Assembly: GCA_016936135.1 (NCBI GenBank)
Contig: JAFGPP010000143.1
Coordinates: 1-44,322, forward strand
Source of the DNA: Thermoplasmatota archaeon
GTDB lineage: Archaea > Thermoplasmatota > E2 > DHVEG-1
DNA: 44,322 nucleotides
Direction of reading: 5' to 3'
The notes under the pieces were generated by a model. The model had not been told where the DNA came from, ran no database searches, and saw only the letters and a program-made list of their open reading frames with translations. How positions within the stretch are numbered: the first letter of the stretch is position 1; each line of letters starts with the position of its first letter. The translations under genes were made by a program, and so were the position numbers. Shown here piece after piece: positions 7,351 through 34,501 of the stretch.

Positions 7351-8292
7351 ATGGAAAAAAGATTAGATGGTAAAATCAGTAATTTTCTTGACACGTCTTT
7401 AGTAATAACCACAATTAAAGAAAGAAGACAATATTTAGTTGATTTGTTGCAATGCATACTCAATCAAACAATAAAACCTCTTGAAATAATAGTGGTGTGT
7501 GATAGTAAGATAAAGATGCCACTTGAAATCTTAGGCAGATATGAGGCATTGGGGATACCCATTGCATTTATTGAGGTGTCCCCAGAACTAACCTTGGGCG
7601 AAACTAGAAATATCGGTCTAAGGAATACTCATAATCAATACATCTTCTTCTTGGATGATGACACTTTTCCAAACTCAAATTGGTTTGTTGAAATGAGTAA
7701 AAGTTTGGAAAAAGGAGCCGATGTTGTAGGCGGGGTATCTAGGCCATTTTTTAACAAAGGATTCAAGGAACCAATTTGGTGGGACGAAGTTCTGATGGGG
7801 CCTTATGTTGCTGTAGGTAATCAATTCCTAAATTTTTATGACAAAATATGGGGCTGCAATTTTGCCATTAGAAAAGATGTTGTGAATAAGATTGGATATT
7901 TTGACAAGAATCTCGGAATGAGAAGGGCCTCTCCAAAGCTACTTGCTGAAGACTCAGAATTCGTAGATAGAGCAGTACGTAGTGGTTTGGTAGTTCGGTT
8001 TAATTCACGTGCTGTTGTTCAACATAGATTAAATGCAGACAGAATTAATCTGTTGAATTTCAAGAAGCGTGCTTGGCAAGAAGGTGAGACCTTTAAGAAA
8101 TTAAATGTGAAACGTAAATCATATTCCACTTCTGAATTTATTAGAGTCATATCATTGAAGTATTTACGCGGTTTTTATTTTGTGATTAAGAGAAAAAGTA
8201 CTGTTGTTGCATTACCCATACATATGTTGTTATTGGTTTATGAACTAATGGGGTGGTTAGGTATAAATGATAGTAGTACACTATCGGTTTAA
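7351..8292 (+). CDS. GT2 glycosyltransferase
   Basis: The protein has 313 residues from ATG 7351. SLVITTIKERRQYL opens the GT-A fold, EIIVVCDS is the first nucleotide-binding strand, FFLDDDTFP is the DxD metal site, and AEDSEFVDRAVRSG carries the ED pair near the acceptor base. A hydrophobic C-terminal helix (ALPIHMLLLVYEL) probably touches the membrane. It transfers one sugar from a nucleotide donor; the linkage is unknown. In-frame starts at TTG 7294 and ATG 7339 would only add residues ahead of the fold. I prefer 7351, which has GGGATG 9 bases upstream. The 216 bases before TTG 7294 hold no gene. Confidence 0.85.
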   Translation: MEKRLDGKISNFLDTSLVITTIKERRQYLVDLLQCILNQTIKPLEIIVVCDSKIKMPLEILGRYEALGIPIAFIEVSPELTLGETRNIGLRNTHNQYIFFLDDDTFPNSNWFVEMSKSLEKGADVVGGVSRPFFNKGFKEPIWWDEVLMGPYVAVGNQFLNFYDKIWGCNFAIRKDVVNKIGYFDKNLGMRRASPKLLAEDSEFVDRAVRSGLVVRFNSRAVVQHRLNADRINLLNFKKRAWQEGETFKKLNVKRKSYSTSEFIRVISLKYLRGFYFVIKRKSTVVALPIHMLLLVYELMGWLGINDSSTLSV

Positions 8293-25094: not shown

Positions 25095-26167
25095 ATGAAA
25101 ATAGTTGAAGTTAGGAATTATAGGGATTTTATGGCTCTGGAAGAGTTTTGGAAAGACCTGCTTAATTATTGTTCTCATACAATTTTTTCTACTTGGGAAT
25201 GGGTTTCGACATGGTGGAAATATTTTGGAAAGGAACGCGATCTCAGAATATTGCTTGCGAAGGAAAAAGAACATCTGATTGGTATTGCTCCACTTATGCT
25301 ATCTCGTTATCCTTTTCTGTATAATCGAACTAAACTTCGCAAAATAGAGTTCATTGGAAGAGGTAATGCAGATTACAACCAGTTTCTTTTCAGAAAGGGA
25401 ATGAATGAACATCCGAATTTTTTTATTAACCATCTTCTAAAAGCCTCTGATTGGGATATTATCGAACTAGTAGATGTAAGTGAAGAAAGTTCTTCAGTTG
25501 ATATTTTGCGATCAATAAATAAATTCTCCGAGCTAAACGTTTGCAATTTTTGTCCGTATATTACTTTGCCTTCTTCACTTCAAGATTACACAAAAAGTTT
25601 AAGTCGAAATTTGAGGAAAAATTTGAGTAAAAGAATGAAAAGACTTGAAAAAGATTATAGAGTTGAGTTTAAAACTCAACATGATTTTGGTTCATTAAGA
25701 GAAGCTATGGAACTGTTTTTTGATTTGCACGATAAAAGGTGGGCATAAAGGAAGGACAGAGTGCCTTTATTTATGGGCTAAATCGCGATTTTCATTTTGA
25801 TTTGGCTCAAGTTTTTGATGAAAAAAACTGGTTAGATCTCAATTTTTTGGTAGTAGATGATAATCCCATCGCGGCAATGTATTCTTTTGATTATGCATCA
25901 AAAAAATATGGATATAATACTGGGTTTGACCCGGAATTTGCTAAGTATGGAATAGGTAACATGCTAAAAAATTATTCGATTGAAGAATCTATAAAAAAGG
26001 GGTTAAGGGAGTATGATCTGCTTAGGGGTCGTGAGTCTTATAAATCGAATTGGGCTACAGGGTTTAGAGAAAATTTTGTTGCACGAATGGCTAATAGAAG
26101 CTGGCGTGGATCATTGTTTTTGCAAATAAACAAAGTCAAACAACATTTTAAAAGTGATAGTAACTAA
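25095..26167 (+). pseudogene. FemAB/BioF2-like acyltransferase split by a -1 frameshift
   Basis: The first half (25095-25748) reads MKIVEVRNYRDFM, WVSTWWKYFGKERDL and LRKNLSKRMKRLEK and ends ...LHDKRWA-stop. The second half is open from 25739 in the other frame as GIKEGQSAFIYGL and contains NFLVVDDNPIAAMYSF, TGFDPEFAKYGIGNML and YDLLRGRESYKSNW. These are the two halves of one Acetyltransf_6 protein of about 357 residues. One extra G in the GGG run at 25741-25743 would join them as DLHDKRW-GIKEG. There is no classical slippery heptamer at the junction, so this looks like a base lost from a G-run: either a real mutation or an assembly error. The second part has no good start of its own. If repaired it would be a paralogue of the protein before it. 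Confidence 0.8.
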
Positions 26168-27469: not shown

Positions 27470-28750
27470 TTGGATACAGGTGTGCAGAAACTTTGCGGGT
27501 TGAAACTCTTGGAAGGCACTTTTGGGCAGTCAGCGTTTAGGGATTCAGCATTGAAATGTTTTGAAAAACGGGTAGCAGCTTATGCAGGAACGCGGAATGC
27601 GATTTTGTGTTCTTCTGGTCGAACAGCCATTTTGTTTTCTTTATTGGCTTTAGATACAAAACCAGGCAACAGGGTTATAATTCCTGATTACTCTTGCCAA
27701 ATATTACCTATCGCGGTTTTTTGTACAGGAGGTATCGCAAATTTTTGTGATATGGACAAGAAAACACTTGGATTATCTTATGGTCATCTCGAGAAACTAA
27801 TTCAATCGGATACTAAAGCAGTAATACTTGTACATCCATATGGCATTCCGGTTGATCCTTCCCCTGTTTTGGAGCTCACTCAAGATAATGATGTTTTCCT
27901 TATTAGTGATGCGGCACAAGCGATTACAGCTAGAATACATGGGAAAAATGTGGCTTCATTTGGTGATGTTGGAATCTTTTCTTTTAACAAGTTTCTAAAC
28001 GTAAATTTAGGGGCTGTTGTAGTTACTAATAATGATGAAATTGCAGAAAAGATAGAGTTAATTCGAAATCAATTTGAAGTTAATTCCTATGCTGCTTTAA
28101 TCGGTAACAAGTGTCCTGCTCCAAAAGTCAAAAAAATTAAGATGAAAATGTTTTCTAGTATCAATTATTTGCATAGGTTTTTGTTGTCGTTTTCAGAAAG
28201 AAAGCATTTCAGCGTTGTTAATGGATGGGTAAACATAGATGAGTATCTGTGGAATAAATATCAAAATAATACTTTAACTCGTCCTTTAATCGGACATCTA
28301 ATGGCTTACAATACGTTAGATAAATACTCGGCAATGCGAAAAATGGAAGAATCTGAAGTTTTAGATCTGGATTTAAAATTTTCTGATATACAAAAACTGC
28401 ATGAAAAACGTACAATGATAGGCAAAAGATATGAACAGTTTCTTAAAGAAGACGTTGCTAGCAAATTCTCTTTATCCACTGATGCAACTCCTTCTTTCTT
28501 TCGCTATCCTGTTCTTTTTTCTGATGAAAATATACGAAATAGTTGCATTGACAATCTTTCGAAAGCTGGATACTTGGTTAATTATCTCTATAAACCCTTA
28601 CATAAATCGCCGCTTTTTAGATATGAAAACGTCGATGCAACTTTTGGTAACTCAGTCTGTTTATCAAAACACCTTTTGCCTTTACCGATTAACCCCCATT
28701 TGAGTCTTGATGATGTCGATAATATAATTGAAATTGTAAACTTGGCTTAA
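27470..28750 (+). CDS. DegT/DnrJ/EryC1/StrS-family PLP-dependent aminotransferase
   Basis: The protein has 426 residues, a little longer than the usual 370-400. LCSSGRTAILFSLLAL binds the PLP phosphate, LISDAAQ gives the PLP-ring Asp at 147, and FSFNKFLN the PLP Lys at 174. VHPYGIPVDP matches the family. The C-terminal part (RYPVLFSD, YLYKPLHKSPLF) is the substrate side. Members transfer an amino group from Glu or Gln to an NDP-keto-sugar. TTG 27470 follows AAAGGT by a few bases. The gene lies between two methyltransferase-like paralogues. The insert at about 215-290 is longer than I expect and may shape the acceptor site. Confidence 0.88.
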   Translation: MDTGVQKLCGLKLLEGTFGQSAFRDSALKCFEKRVAAYAGTRNAILCSSGRTAILFSLLALDTKPGNRVIIPDYSCQILPIAVFCTGGIANFCDMDKKTLGLSYGHLEKLIQSDTKAVILVHPYGIPVDPSPVLELTQDNDVFLISDAAQAITARIHGKNVASFGDVGIFSFNKFLNVNLGAVVVTNNDEIAEKIELIRNQFEVNSYAALIGNKCPAPKVKKIKMKMFSSINYLHRFLLSFSERKHFSVVNGWVNIDEYLWNKYQNNTLTRPLIGHLMAYNTLDKYSAMRKMEESEVLDLDLKFSDIQKLHEKRTMIGKRYEQFLKEDVASKFSLSTDATPSFFRYPVLFSDENIRNSCIDNLSKAGYLVNYLYKPLHKSPLFRYENVDATFGNSVCLSKHLLPLPINPHLSLDDVDNIIEIVNLA

Positions 28751-30074: not shown

Positions 30075-30110
30075 ACCAAGTGATTGTAGAATATTTTTTT
30101 AGTGATAAAT

Positions 30111-31703
30111 ATGGACAGAGCTTTAAAAACGGGTAAAGATGTAGTAAAAGGCAGTTTCTGGCTATTCACTGGAAGAACAATCTCCACTGTTCTCCTAGCT
30201 GTTGGAACTATAATTTTGGGATTTTACATTGACGAACTGGACTATGGATTATACACTATAGCATTGATTCTTCCAGTCACGCTTCTTTTATTTCAGGATT
30301 GGGGGGTCTCTTCTGCCATGACGAAATATTGTTCTCAGTATAAAAGTGAAAAAAGAGAGGGAGACTTGAGAAAGCTCATTAAAGTTGCATTAATCTTTGG
30401 GATTGTAACCGCTAGTGTATTAACAATATTTTCATTATTGGTGTCCAACTTTGTAGCTACATTACTTTTTAGTAATGAAAATGCATTTCCTTATATAACA
30501 ATTGCATCAATATCGATTTTGCCTTCTTCGTTCTTAGCTCTCATTCAGTCAATTCTTATTGGATTTGAAAGAATGAGGCTTAACAGTGTATTAATTATTT
30601 GTCAAGCTGCTATTCAATCTGTTTTATCAATATTACTGGTGTATCTAAACTTTGGTGCATTGGGGGCAACCGTTGGTTATAGCTTTTCATTTGTAGGTGC
30701 ATCTATTTTAGCCCTTTTTATATTATACTTTAAAATTTTAAAGGGTCTTCCCAGCGAGTCTGAATCTTCTATTTCGATAACGAAAGGTCAAATATTGAAG
30801 CTGTTATTATCGTTTGGGGTTCCTCTTGGTGTAGCGACCATTCTAGGGGGAATCTTGCCACAGTTCACTTCTTTTATTATGGCTTCTTCTGTAGATGAAG
30901 TACTCATTGGGAATTATAAGATCGCGCATAATTTTGCGACAATGTTAACTTTCGTTACATTTCCCATTTTTACTGTTTTATTTCCTGCTTATTCAAAATT
31001 TGATCCGGATCGTGAACTTCACCTTCTTAAATCAATTTTTTCTTCTTCGGTGAAATATGTTACTTTTCTATTAGTTCCTGTAACTTTGGCGTTGATGGTT
31101 CTAGCAGAACCGCTTATTAGCACATTATATGCTGACAAGTGGTCTTATGCACCACTTTTCTTGTCTGTTGGAGTAATAGGAAATCTGTTGATAGTTTTTG
31201 GAAATGTTAATGTGAATAGTCTTCTTACAGGTTTGGGAAAAACAAAAGTTCTAATGAAATTGAAAATATTGACTATTATTATTGGTATTCCTTCATCATT
31301 TGTACTAATTCCTCAATTTAATATAATTGGGTTAATTATTACTGGGCTACTGGCAAACACACCCTCTATGGCTATTAGCCTTTACTACATATGGAAACAT
31401 TACAGAATTAAGGCAGAATTTAGAACTTCCGCAAAAATATTTCTTGCCTCCAGCATATCCGCTTTATGCACTTGGATATTTTTGAGAACTGTTACTGAGG
31501 CGGCGTGGGTTATGCTATCTTGTGGTACTGTAATTTTTCTGGTGACATATGTTATTTTTTCACCTTTAGTAGAAGCAGTAACTCAAGATGATATACGCAA
31601 CCTTAGAGTCATGTTTTCCAGTTTAGGAATTGTGTCTCGGCTGGTCAACATTCCATTATTGTTAATGAACAAGATCCTAAAACTGAAGAATAAAAACCCA
31701 TGA
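30111..31703 (+). CDS. Wzx-like polysaccharide flippase (MATE/PST superfamily)
   Basis: The protein has about 530 residues and around 14 predicted membrane helices in the order typical of lipid-linked oligosaccharide flippases. The start GKDVVKGSFWLFTGRTISTV is the amphipathic entry helix with the first membrane segment, followed by DYGLYTIALILP, the conserved loop after helix 2. FGVPLGVATILG and GNYKIAHNFATML are the start of the second half. It should move undecaprenyl- or dolichyl-linked glycan across the membrane. It comes directly after the sugar-modification block, so it probably exports the product of this locus. ATG 30111 is preferred; GTG 30102 would add three residues. Confidence 0.88.
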   Translation: MDRALKTGKDVVKGSFWLFTGRTISTVLLAVGTIILGFYIDELDYGLYTIALILPVTLLLFQDWGVSSAMTKYCSQYKSEKREGDLRKLIKVALIFGIVTASVLTIFSLLVSNFVATLLFSNENAFPYITIASISILPSSFLALIQSILIGFERMRLNSVLIICQAAIQSVLSILLVYLNFGALGATVGYSFSFVGASILALFILYFKILKGLPSESESSISITKGQILKLLLSFGVPLGVATILGGILPQFTSFIMASSVDEVLIGNYKIAHNFATMLTFVTFPIFTVLFPAYSKFDPDRELHLLKSIFSSSVKYVTFLLVPVTLALMVLAEPLISTLYADKWSYAPLFLSVGVIGNLLIVFGNVNVNSLLTGLGKTKVLMKLKILTIIIGIPSSFVLIPQFNIIGLIITGLLANTPSMAISLYYIWKHYRIKAEFRTSAKIFLASSISALCTWIFLRTVTEAAWVMLSCGTVIFLVTYVIFSPLVEAVTQDDIRNLRVMFSSLGIVSRLVNIPLLLMNKILKLKNKNP

Positions 31704-32618: not shown

Positions 32619-33476
32619 ATGATGTATATTGAAAAAGGGTATTCATATGAGCCTGCAAGCAAATTGATTATTACTTTAGCTCCTACGGGAATGATACCTA
32701 CAAAAGAAGACACAAAGAATGTTCCTTTAACGCCCGATGAAATTGTTAAAGACGCGTATGAGGGTTATAAATTAGGGGTTTCTATAGTCCATATCCATGC
32801 GCGAGATGAGCAAGGTAAGCCGACTCATAAAAAAGCGTATTTTGAAGAGATTTTTGAAGGCATAAAAAGAAAGTGTCCGGATGTGATTATTTGTGCTACA
32901 ACTAGCGGTCGAGTGGATCCACAAGTTGAACATCGCTCAGAAGTTTTGGATCTTTATCCCGAAATGGCGAGCTTAACTATGGGTTCTTTGAATTTTCCTC
33001 GTCATCCAAGCGTTAATTCTTTAGAAACAATTATGAAATTGGCGAAAATGATGACTGAAAGAAGCATTTGTCCTGAACTTGAAATATTTGAGCCCGGGTT
33101 TATTAATACAGCCAAGTATTTGGTGCACATAGGCATTCTAAGGGAGCCTTTGCATTTTAATCTGTTATTGGGTTCTTTAGGGTCAATGTCTGCGAGTTTA
33201 CGTGATTTGTCTTTTCTTGTTGATTCACTTCCTTCTGGGAGTACATGGTCGGCAACGGGAATTGGTAGATTTCAAACACAAATAAATGCTGCAGCAATAT
33301 TGATGGGGGGGCATGTACGTGTTGGAATTGAGGACAGTATATATTATAGTTATCCAAAGAAAGAGTTGGCAACCAATACTGATTTGGTGAAAAGGATAGT
33401 AAGGTTAGCAACTGAATTAGGTAGAGATGTTGCCACTCCTTCAGAAGCAAGAAACATTTTAGGGCTTTCTATATGA
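32619..33476 (+). CDS. Beta-keto acid cleavage enzyme (BKACE, DUF849; Kce-like)
   Basis: The protein has 285 residues. SIVHIHARDEQGKP is the zinc His-x-His with the following Arg-Asp, ATTSGR the substrate loop, WSATGIGRFQ the conserved Gly-Arg region, and GGHVRVGIEDS the last signature. Known BKACEs cleave a beta-keto acid with acetyl-CoA to give acetoacetate plus a new acyl-CoA; the founding member Kce works on 3-keto-5-aminohexanoate. The specificity residues cannot be fully read here. GAGGA stands before ATG 32619. The gene overlaps the N-acyltransferase start as ATGA, so a new acyl-CoA and its user would be made together, an attractive but unproven link. No lysine-fermentation gene is nearby. 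Confidence 0.88.
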   Translation: MMYIEKGYSYEPASKLIITLAPTGMIPTKEDTKNVPLTPDEIVKDAYEGYKLGVSIVHIHARDEQGKPTHKKAYFEEIFEGIKRKCPDVIICATTSGRVDPQVEHRSEVLDLYPEMASLTMGSLNFPRHPSVNSLETIMKLAKMMTERSICPELEIFEPGFINTAKYLVHIGILREPLHFNLLLGSLGSMSASLRDLSFLVDSLPSGSTWSATGIGRFQTQINAAAILMGGHVRVGIEDSIYYSYPKKELATNTDLVKRIVRLATELGRDVATPSEARNILGLSI

Positions 33477-34501
33477 ATGAAACTGCTAATCTGCTTAAAT
33501 CTGTATGTCAGAGTGTTTCAAAAGAGCGTCTTGTTAACGATTTTAAAAGACTCGGTTTAAAGATTGGAGACCATATTGCAGTTTCGTTATCCTTTAAGAG
33601 TATTGGATATGTTGAGGGTGGAGCTGAAGCATTTTTAGATGCATTGCTTGAGGTGGTTGGTCCAAAGGGAACAATAATGATGAATACGTATACTTTCTCT
33701 TTTTATTTGTGCAAAATTCCCAATGACTATATTTTTGAAATTGAAAAGACTATGCCTTATACTGGTCTTGTACCTTATACGCTAACTAATCGTGAAGGGT
33801 CAATTAGGAGTCGGCATCCTACAAATTCGGTTGTATGTATAGGTCAAATGGCTAGGTATCTTACTGATGGTCATGATGAAAATTCACAACCCTTTTTACC
33901 GTATGAGAAACTTGCGAAAATTAATGGGAAATATTTGGCTATTGGGATAGGGAACAGGCTTGTAGGGTTACGTCATGAAGCGCAGAGGAAAGCTGGACTT
34001 TTTGTTGTTCCTATTATTCAGGGGGTAAAGTTTAGAGATTCTAAAGGAAAAATTAAATTGTTTGTCCGGTTAGGAACTCCATGTGTTAAAAATCTGCCTG
34101 TATTAGTTCCTAGGCTTGAGTGTTTGGGGGCTTTGAAGCGTGGAAACATTGGGATGGCTAGTGCAATCTTTGGGTCTGTAGACAAATTGGTCAATCTTAT
34201 GGCGTCCATGTTAAAGGATGATCCGACACTCAATTTGTGTGATGACTGGTTTTGTTACAAGTGTCGAGAACTGGAAAGAAGGTTAGATCTTTATAATAGA
34301 ATTGTTTCTCCTAAGCTTTTTCAGAGGAATAGATTTCTAAGAACTGTTCTAAGTTGGAGAAACAATCTTTTTCTTTTAGAAATGAACTGTGGAGATACTT
34401 TGAATGTACCGAATTGGTTAATGCCAATTTCACGAATTTTTGGTGTTTTTCAACGATTTATTGCTAAGATGCCTATCTTTAGGGGTTTGCATTATATTTG
34501 A
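33473..34501 (+). CDS. AAC(3)-family aminoglycoside-type N-acyltransferase
   Basis: The protein has 342 residues. GLKIGDHIAVSLSFKSIGYVEGG is the start shared by AAC(3) enzymes, then LLEVVGPKGTIMMNTYTF, TGLVPYTLTNREG, RSRHPTNSVV and, near 145, ENSQPFLPYEKLAKINGKYLAIGIG. The conserved HPTNS His is the likely base. The last 80 residues (CRELERRLDLYNRIV and on) go beyond most AAC(3) proteins, which end near 270. Members move an acetyl or other acyl group from CoA to an amino sugar. In glycan loci they N-acylate nucleotide sugars and are not resistance genes. It overlaps BKACE by 4 bases (ATGA). Confidence 0.85.
   Translation: MNETANLLKSVCQSVSKERLVNDFKRLGLKIGDHIAVSLSFKSIGYVEGGAEAFLDALLEVVGPKGTIMMNTYTFSFYLCKIPNDYIFEIEKTMPYTGLVPYTLTNREGSIRSRHPTNSVVCIGQMARYLTDGHDENSQPFLPYEKLAKINGKYLAIGIGNRLVGLRHEAQRKAGLFVVPIIQGVKFRDSKGKIKLFVRLGTPCVKNLPVLVPRLECLGALKRGNIGMASAIFGSVDKLVNLMASMLKDDPTLNLCDDWFCYKCRELERRLDLYNRIVSPKLFQRNRFLRTVLSWRNNLFLLEMNCGDTLNVPNWLMPISRIFGVFQRFIAKMPIFRGLHYI

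Follow-up and report, generated by a model that had tools for sequence, protein, structure and literature searches.

Introduction

The chemistry established for enzymes of the BKACE family is the reaction of a beta-keto acid with acetyl-CoA to give an acyl-CoA and acetoacetate (PMC12871164, PMC4922564). In a catabolic operon for deoxyribonate, a short-chain dehydrogenase (SDR) is accompanied by a BKACE that has been proposed to give glyceryl-CoA (PMC6365646). A BKACE can thus plausibly supply an acyl-CoA derived from a sugar acid, as we consider here, although that operon breaks the acyl-CoA down instead of transferring it. BsfD of the flavophos cluster is a BKACE-family enzyme that functions in biosynthesis; it has Phe at the site of the catalytic Tyr and acetylates its substrate without retro-Claisen cleavage (PMC12871164). 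The window BKACE described below shares this Phe, whereas BsfD belongs to a phosphonate pathway, has no acyltransferase partner and omits the cleavage step.

Amino-sugar N-acyltransferases of the PglD/NeuD and WecD types follow a logic that recurs in the present system, in that a DegT aminotransferase and a CoA-dependent N-acyltransferase are combined in a glycan gene set. To our knowledge, these systems use acetyl-CoA and have no dedicated partner that forms an acyl-CoA. In the system described here, by contrast, a BKACE is coupled to the acyltransferase, and the archaeal acyltransferase has the AAC(3) fold. Aminoglycoside N-acetyltransferases of the AAC(3) type and FrbF belong to the Antibiotic_NAT fold family and have a conserved His, as does our archaeal protein. 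The AAC(3), hexapeptide and GNAT folds, all three of which we found as partners of BKACEs, include CoA-dependent acyltransferases.

Results

Gene pair in the window

The window, which is the whole stretch of 44,322 nucleotides that was analyzed, comes from contig C8 of a 1.71-Mb, 86%-complete archaeal genome. The features discussed here are the following.

27470..28750, + strand: DegT/DnrJ/EryC1 aminotransferase of the glycan locus
30102..31703, + strand: polysaccharide flippase (Polysacc_synt), the last glycan-locus gene before the pair
32619..33476, + strand: BKACE-family protein of 285 amino acids, PTG-motif clade, predicted to form an acyl-CoA (Pfam, alignment)
33473..33476, + strand: ATGA in which the BKACE stop and the AAC(3) start overlap (counterpart at L002:7870-7873)
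33473..34501, + strand: AAC(3)-fold (Antibiotic_NAT) acyltransferase of 342 amino acids (Pfam, conserved His168)

The BKACE reading frame extends from an ATG at 32619 to a TGA ending at 33476 and is preceded by a ribosome-binding-like AGAGG motif just 5' of it; that of the AAC(3)-like protein extends from an ATG at 33473 to a stop at 34501. The open reading frames, Pfam matches and motif residues confirmed the first-pass annotation of a complete BKACE and an AAC(3)-type protein that share an ATGA. No second BKACE was found in the 86%-complete genome.

Active-site residues of the window BKACE

The window protein matched the Pfam BKACE model (PF05853) over its full length (positions 1-274 of 274) with a score of 313.5 bits, the cut-off being 24.8. 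Its specificity residues had earlier been proposed for comparison with those of Kce, the 3-keto-5-aminohexanoate cleavage enzyme, and our alignment gave a mixed result. The Zn ligands of the HxH...E site (H58-x-H60 and E238) are kept, as are R234, D239 and E155, and the predicted products are an acyl-CoA and acetoacetate, as for Kce. However, Ile26 stands at the position of CaKce Glu14, which we take to contact the amino group of the substrate, and Phe157 replaces Tyr145. The score against the equivalog for Kce of lysine fermentation (NF052387) was 307.7 bits, below the cut-off of 382, and a search of the 86%-complete genome for lysine 5,6-aminomutase, run without a positive control, gave no match. 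The missed NF052387 cut-off and the change of Glu14 to Ile disfavor 3-aminobutyryl-CoA, which had been suggested as an example of the acyl donor. The window BKACE also differs from lysine-fermentation Kce in having a clade-specific pocket and in being linked to an acyltransferase rather than to catabolic genes.

The catalytic Tyr (CaKce Tyr145) has been called universal in the BKACE family (PMC12871164). Phe is present at this site in a Fusobacterium KCE-like protein (L082), a BKACE of a pca cluster (L083) and PDB entries 3fa5, 3no5 and 3chv, so that Phe or Tyr at this position does not define the family. For the same reason, we discarded Phe as a sign of BsfD-like chemistry.

The AAC(3)-fold partner

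The partner protein scored 97.4 bits against Pfam Antibiotic_NAT (PF02522; cut-off of 25), and its His168, in the sequence GLRHEAQ, was invariant across six aligned homologues; the motif is HxAQ in this protein and HxAE in typical AAC(3)s. A unique tail follows about residue 281. The extra COOH-terminal region noted earlier is therefore present, but it comprises approximately 60 residues (282-342) rather than 70. An AlphaFold model of the protein, based on a two-row alignment, had a mean pLDDT of 34.6, too low for the model to be used.

Its Pfam family and weak matches to AAC(3) models would be compatible with an aminoglycoside-resistance enzyme for which the BKACE is a passenger. We regard this explanation as very improbable: the best score against the NCBIfam AAC(3) resistance models was 87.9 bits with a cut-off of 270, and the protein fell far under every curated cut-off; its closest relatives outside L002 are uncharacterized archaeal proteins with 33-36% identity; and the same BKACE clade pairs with other acyltransferases in phage contigs. 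The COOH-terminal tail and a presumed non-acetyl donor further distinguish the window protein from resistance enzymes.

A Cys motif, C256-x4-C261-x2-C264, was considered as a pair-specific feature and rejected, given that it is common to haloarchaeal AAC(3)s and that of L010, which are without a BKACE. The haloarchaeal proteins (L011-L013) are encoded by plasmids, are 33-36% identical to the window protein, contain the Cys motif, and stand among sulfatase, PIG-L and sugar-isomerase genes with no BKACE there.

The pair in other archaea

A scan of contigs of GTDB-type genomes yielded one relative of the pair, in a Bathyarchaeota MAG (L002), with a BKACE 72-77% identical and an AAC(3) protein 47% identical to those of the window. 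The first-pass annotation had set conservation of the pair elsewhere as its test; L002 carries both genes with the identical 4-bp overlap (7870-7873), and the pairing therefore goes beyond chance. The genes around the L002 pair, named by eye, encode an MFS transporter, an ATPase, a beta-helix protein and PQQ-repeat proteins, including a fusion with a GT39-like membrane domain, and the 14.8-kb contig was found to carry no glycan-synthesis gene. Among 80 genomes of the window's class there was no further relative of the AAC(3) protein, and among 390 genomes of the phylum there was only L010, which has no adjoining BKACE. Given that only L002 (the pair) and L010 (AAC(3) alone) turned up, the pair is rare in the archaea searched, and it is a unit found in two different surroundings. 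The AAC(3) version of the arrangement thus comes from few genomes, the two archaeal ones of the window and L002.

The phylum search also yielded two more archaeal-binned BKACEs of the clade defined below, L079 (on a contig binned in genome G112) and L078 (G360). Either contig may be misbinned, and that of L078 is phage-like in appearance. The genes of L079 are arranged in the order epimerase, DegT, PglD-like protein, BKACE and glycosyltransferases.

The adjoining glycan locus

Glycan genes are located upstream of the pair, at about 1.4-31.7 kb of the window, and encode epimerases, a nucleotidyltransferase, sugar C-methyltransferases, a PIG-L deacetylase, a UDP-sugar dehydrogenase, a DegT aminotransferase, glycosyltransferases and a flippase. 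A gap of some 0.9 kb separates the end of the flippase gene (31703) from the pair, which therefore borders the glycan locus rather than sharing an operon with it. The DegT gene, about 4 kb upstream and not adjacent, is a possible source of an amino sugar to be acylated. Placement of the pair in a glycan locus, as first annotated, accordingly holds in the bordering sense for the window, and it holds for L079 and several phage contigs, but not for L002, which has no sugar-synthesis neighbors.

The 0.9-kb gap and the lack of glycan genes at L002 would fit a pair whose N-acylated product is not a glycan but derives, for example, from a lipid or cofactor amine, with the glycan locus being incidental. 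Glycan genes and DegT are, however, found in or near the module in the window, in L079 and in many phage contigs, and we consider such a product rather unlikely.

At 25095-26167 of the window, two overlapping open reading frames (217 and 142 amino acids) look like a frameshift-split FemAB/GNAT-like protein.

A BKACE clade with mostly phage-type members

A scan of viral contigs with two archaeal BKACEs as queries revealed BKACEs of 41-52% identity on phage-type contigs, some of which carry terminase genes as judged by eye. INPHARED phage records contained no match to two of the phage BKACEs, and PHROGs contained none for a BKACE. In a maximum-likelihood tree of 44 BKACEs, those of the window, L002, L079 and L078 formed a clade of 23 rows (99/96) with phage proteins, and most of its members came from phage-type contigs. 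It did not include SDR-linked viral BKACEs, the pca-cluster BKACE or the Fusobacterium KCE-like protein. The Zn ligands, Arg226, Asp231 and Glu143 (CaKce numbering) are kept in 23/23 members, and the clade has a specific pocket consisting of Ser/Thr84, Arg86 and Thr108, a combination present in no other aligned BKACE.

Two members, L029 and L030, are in riboflavin-precursor clusters without an acyltransferase, and coupling of the clade to acyltransferases is therefore not exclusive. These clusters, at L029:9486-15853 (Salmonella pRSE21) and L030:9290-13688 (a Streptomyces camelliae plasmid), contain genes for gamma-glutamyltransferase, RibA, a methyltransferase and riboflavin synthase, together with a RibD-like deaminase in L029; the Streptomyces cluster adjoins rosB and ribX. 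They possibly make an undescribed flavin or pyrimidine natural product.

The presence of the clade in such small-molecule clusters bears on a further explanation, according to which the window BKACE acylates carbon without cleavage, as BsfD does, to give a diketone-type small molecule whose amine, rather than a glycan, is acylated by the AAC(3) protein. The Phe at the catalytic-Tyr site, shared with BsfD, and the isolated position of the L002 pair would also be in keeping with this scheme. Phe is so common at this site, however, that it is no mark of altered chemistry, and phage contigs and L079 frequently have glycan neighbors and DegT; we judge BsfD-like chemistry to be unlikely.

Coupling to acyltransferases and aminotransferases

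We surveyed 57 non-redundant viral contigs of the 99/96 clade with HMMs of the partner families. An acyltransferase was the same-strand neighbor of the BKACE in 55 of the 57, and L121, whose partner lies beyond the gap limit and was confirmed with Pfam, brings the number of coupled contigs to 56/57, leaving L160 (= L049) as the only one without a partner. Among the 55 pairs scored, 47 have BKACE and acyltransferase reading frames that overlap. The viral partners are of the hexapeptide/PglD-like type (51, with a conserved GHD/GHE His, as for PglD/NeuD) or the GNAT type (5), with no AAC(3) partner found in the viral contigs. Given that viral contigs share ancestry, the 56/57 do not represent 56 independent events; it carries more weight that acyltransferases of three folds are coupled to these BKACEs and that both gene orders occur.

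As controls, 15 loci from a different viral BKACE clade, in most cases with a short-chain dehydrogenase gene upstream instead, and 18 other BKACE loci were screened with the same HMMs. No partner-family acyltransferase adjoined the BKACE in any of them; one unlinked match, in L017, was about 4 kb away. Members of other acyltransferase families could escape such a screen.

Of 52 viral contigs, 30 have a DegT aminotransferase of about 209 amino acids in the flanks that were fetched, usually directly 3' of the acyltransferase gene; the protein retains a Lys where the PLP lysine would be expected. An aminotransferase and an N-acyltransferase thus stand in one gene set in these phage contigs and in L079. 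At L150:6434-7063 and in 29 other phage contigs, the DegT/DnrJ/EryC1 protein is only about 209 amino acids long (compared with the usual 370 or so) with the PLP-lysine region kept.

BKACEs are mostly known from catabolism, and some (L031 and L083) are in pca-type clusters, so that the window enzyme might be an ordinary catabolic one (for lysine, carnitine, 3-oxoadipate or the like) with the AAC(3) gene a coincidental neighbor. This explanation is in part already refuted by L002, with its identical overlap, and by the phage contigs, with acyltransferase coupling across the clade. The missed KCE cut-off and the loss of Glu14 also argue against it, as does the failure to find a CoA-transferase of the acetoacetate-recovery type in the 86%-complete genome, for which control genomes gave matches. 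We thus consider it quite improbable.

Discussion

We think it probable, though by no means assured, that the window pair is a biosynthetic module for acyl-donor formation and acyl transfer, in which an acyl-CoA produced by the BKACE is passed to an amino sugar by the coupled AAC(3)-fold enzyme. The BKACE would cleave a beta-keto acid with acetyl-CoA (retro-Claisen) to give acetoacetate and a new acyl-CoA, and its AAC(3)-fold partner, coupled to it in translation, would transfer the acyl group from CoA to the amino group of an amino sugar. The likeliest acceptor would be an NDP-amino sugar or a lipid-linked intermediate of the adjoining surface glycan. For this module we infer the direction of the reaction, CoA as the carrier, a non-acetyl acyl group and an amino sugar acceptor. 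A non-acetyl group is suggested because a dedicated supplier would be superfluous for acetyl-CoA, and an amino sugar because an aminotransferase is present in many copies of the module. Glyceryl-CoA is a conceivable product of the BKACE here, given that a BKACE has been proposed to make it from ketodeoxyribonate (PMC6365646). Against the module stands the finding of no gene for a source of the beta-keto acid near the pair.

The earlier proposal of a two-enzyme module in which the BKACE serves the acyltransferase is supported by the L002 pair, the 56/57 viral contigs and the frequent aminotransferase. The literature searched, with most subscription journals outside its range, contained no paper that joins BKACE with O-antigen, glycan or phage auxiliary genes or with the acylation of glycans or by phages, in agreement with the statement that no such system has been described. 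Since the coupling has persisted through changes of acyltransferase fold, the supply of the acyl group looks like the constant part. We lean slightly towards a wider route, borne by phages and archaea, in which this BKACE clade provides an unusual acyl-CoA for amino sugars by way of a translationally coupled AAC(3), hexapeptide or GNAT enzyme. If so, it would represent an undescribed N-acyl modification of glycans, and BKACEs would have a role outside catabolism. Most of what is known of BKACEs concerns catabolism, and the specificities of many are orphan. A clade tied to acyltransferases offers a way to find new activities and leads us to expect acyl groups not yet seen on glycans that archaea or phages encode. 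Two or three purified proteins would allow a direct test of the idea, for which the small phage gene sets are convenient systems.

Related BKACE loci

BKACEs of the f64 family (L087-L101) were considered as candidates and rejected, with scores well under those of the clade and a different context at L099, the one locus read. A BKACE with an APTGSVPRKK motif is present in 12 genomes of one archaeal genus (L099:6085-6915 and 11 related genomes). Its neighbors in L099 encode an ABC transporter and a class-III aminotransferase, and a catabolic role is likely. Another BKACE clade in viral contigs (L061-L074) is 28-34% identical, and in most of its loci the gene for a short-chain dehydrogenase, located upstream, extends over the BKACE start, an arrangement that recalls the SDR-BKACE pair of deoxyribonate catabolism.

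Among the surveyed contigs, a WbqC-family protein is encoded between the BKACE and the hexapeptide acyltransferase at L119:5788-6480, and five of the contigs encode similar proteins. Genes for a PfkB kinase, a cytidylyltransferase-like protein and an epimerase, which resemble an ADP-heptose set, lie downstream of the module at L121:7012-10112 on a phage-type contig.
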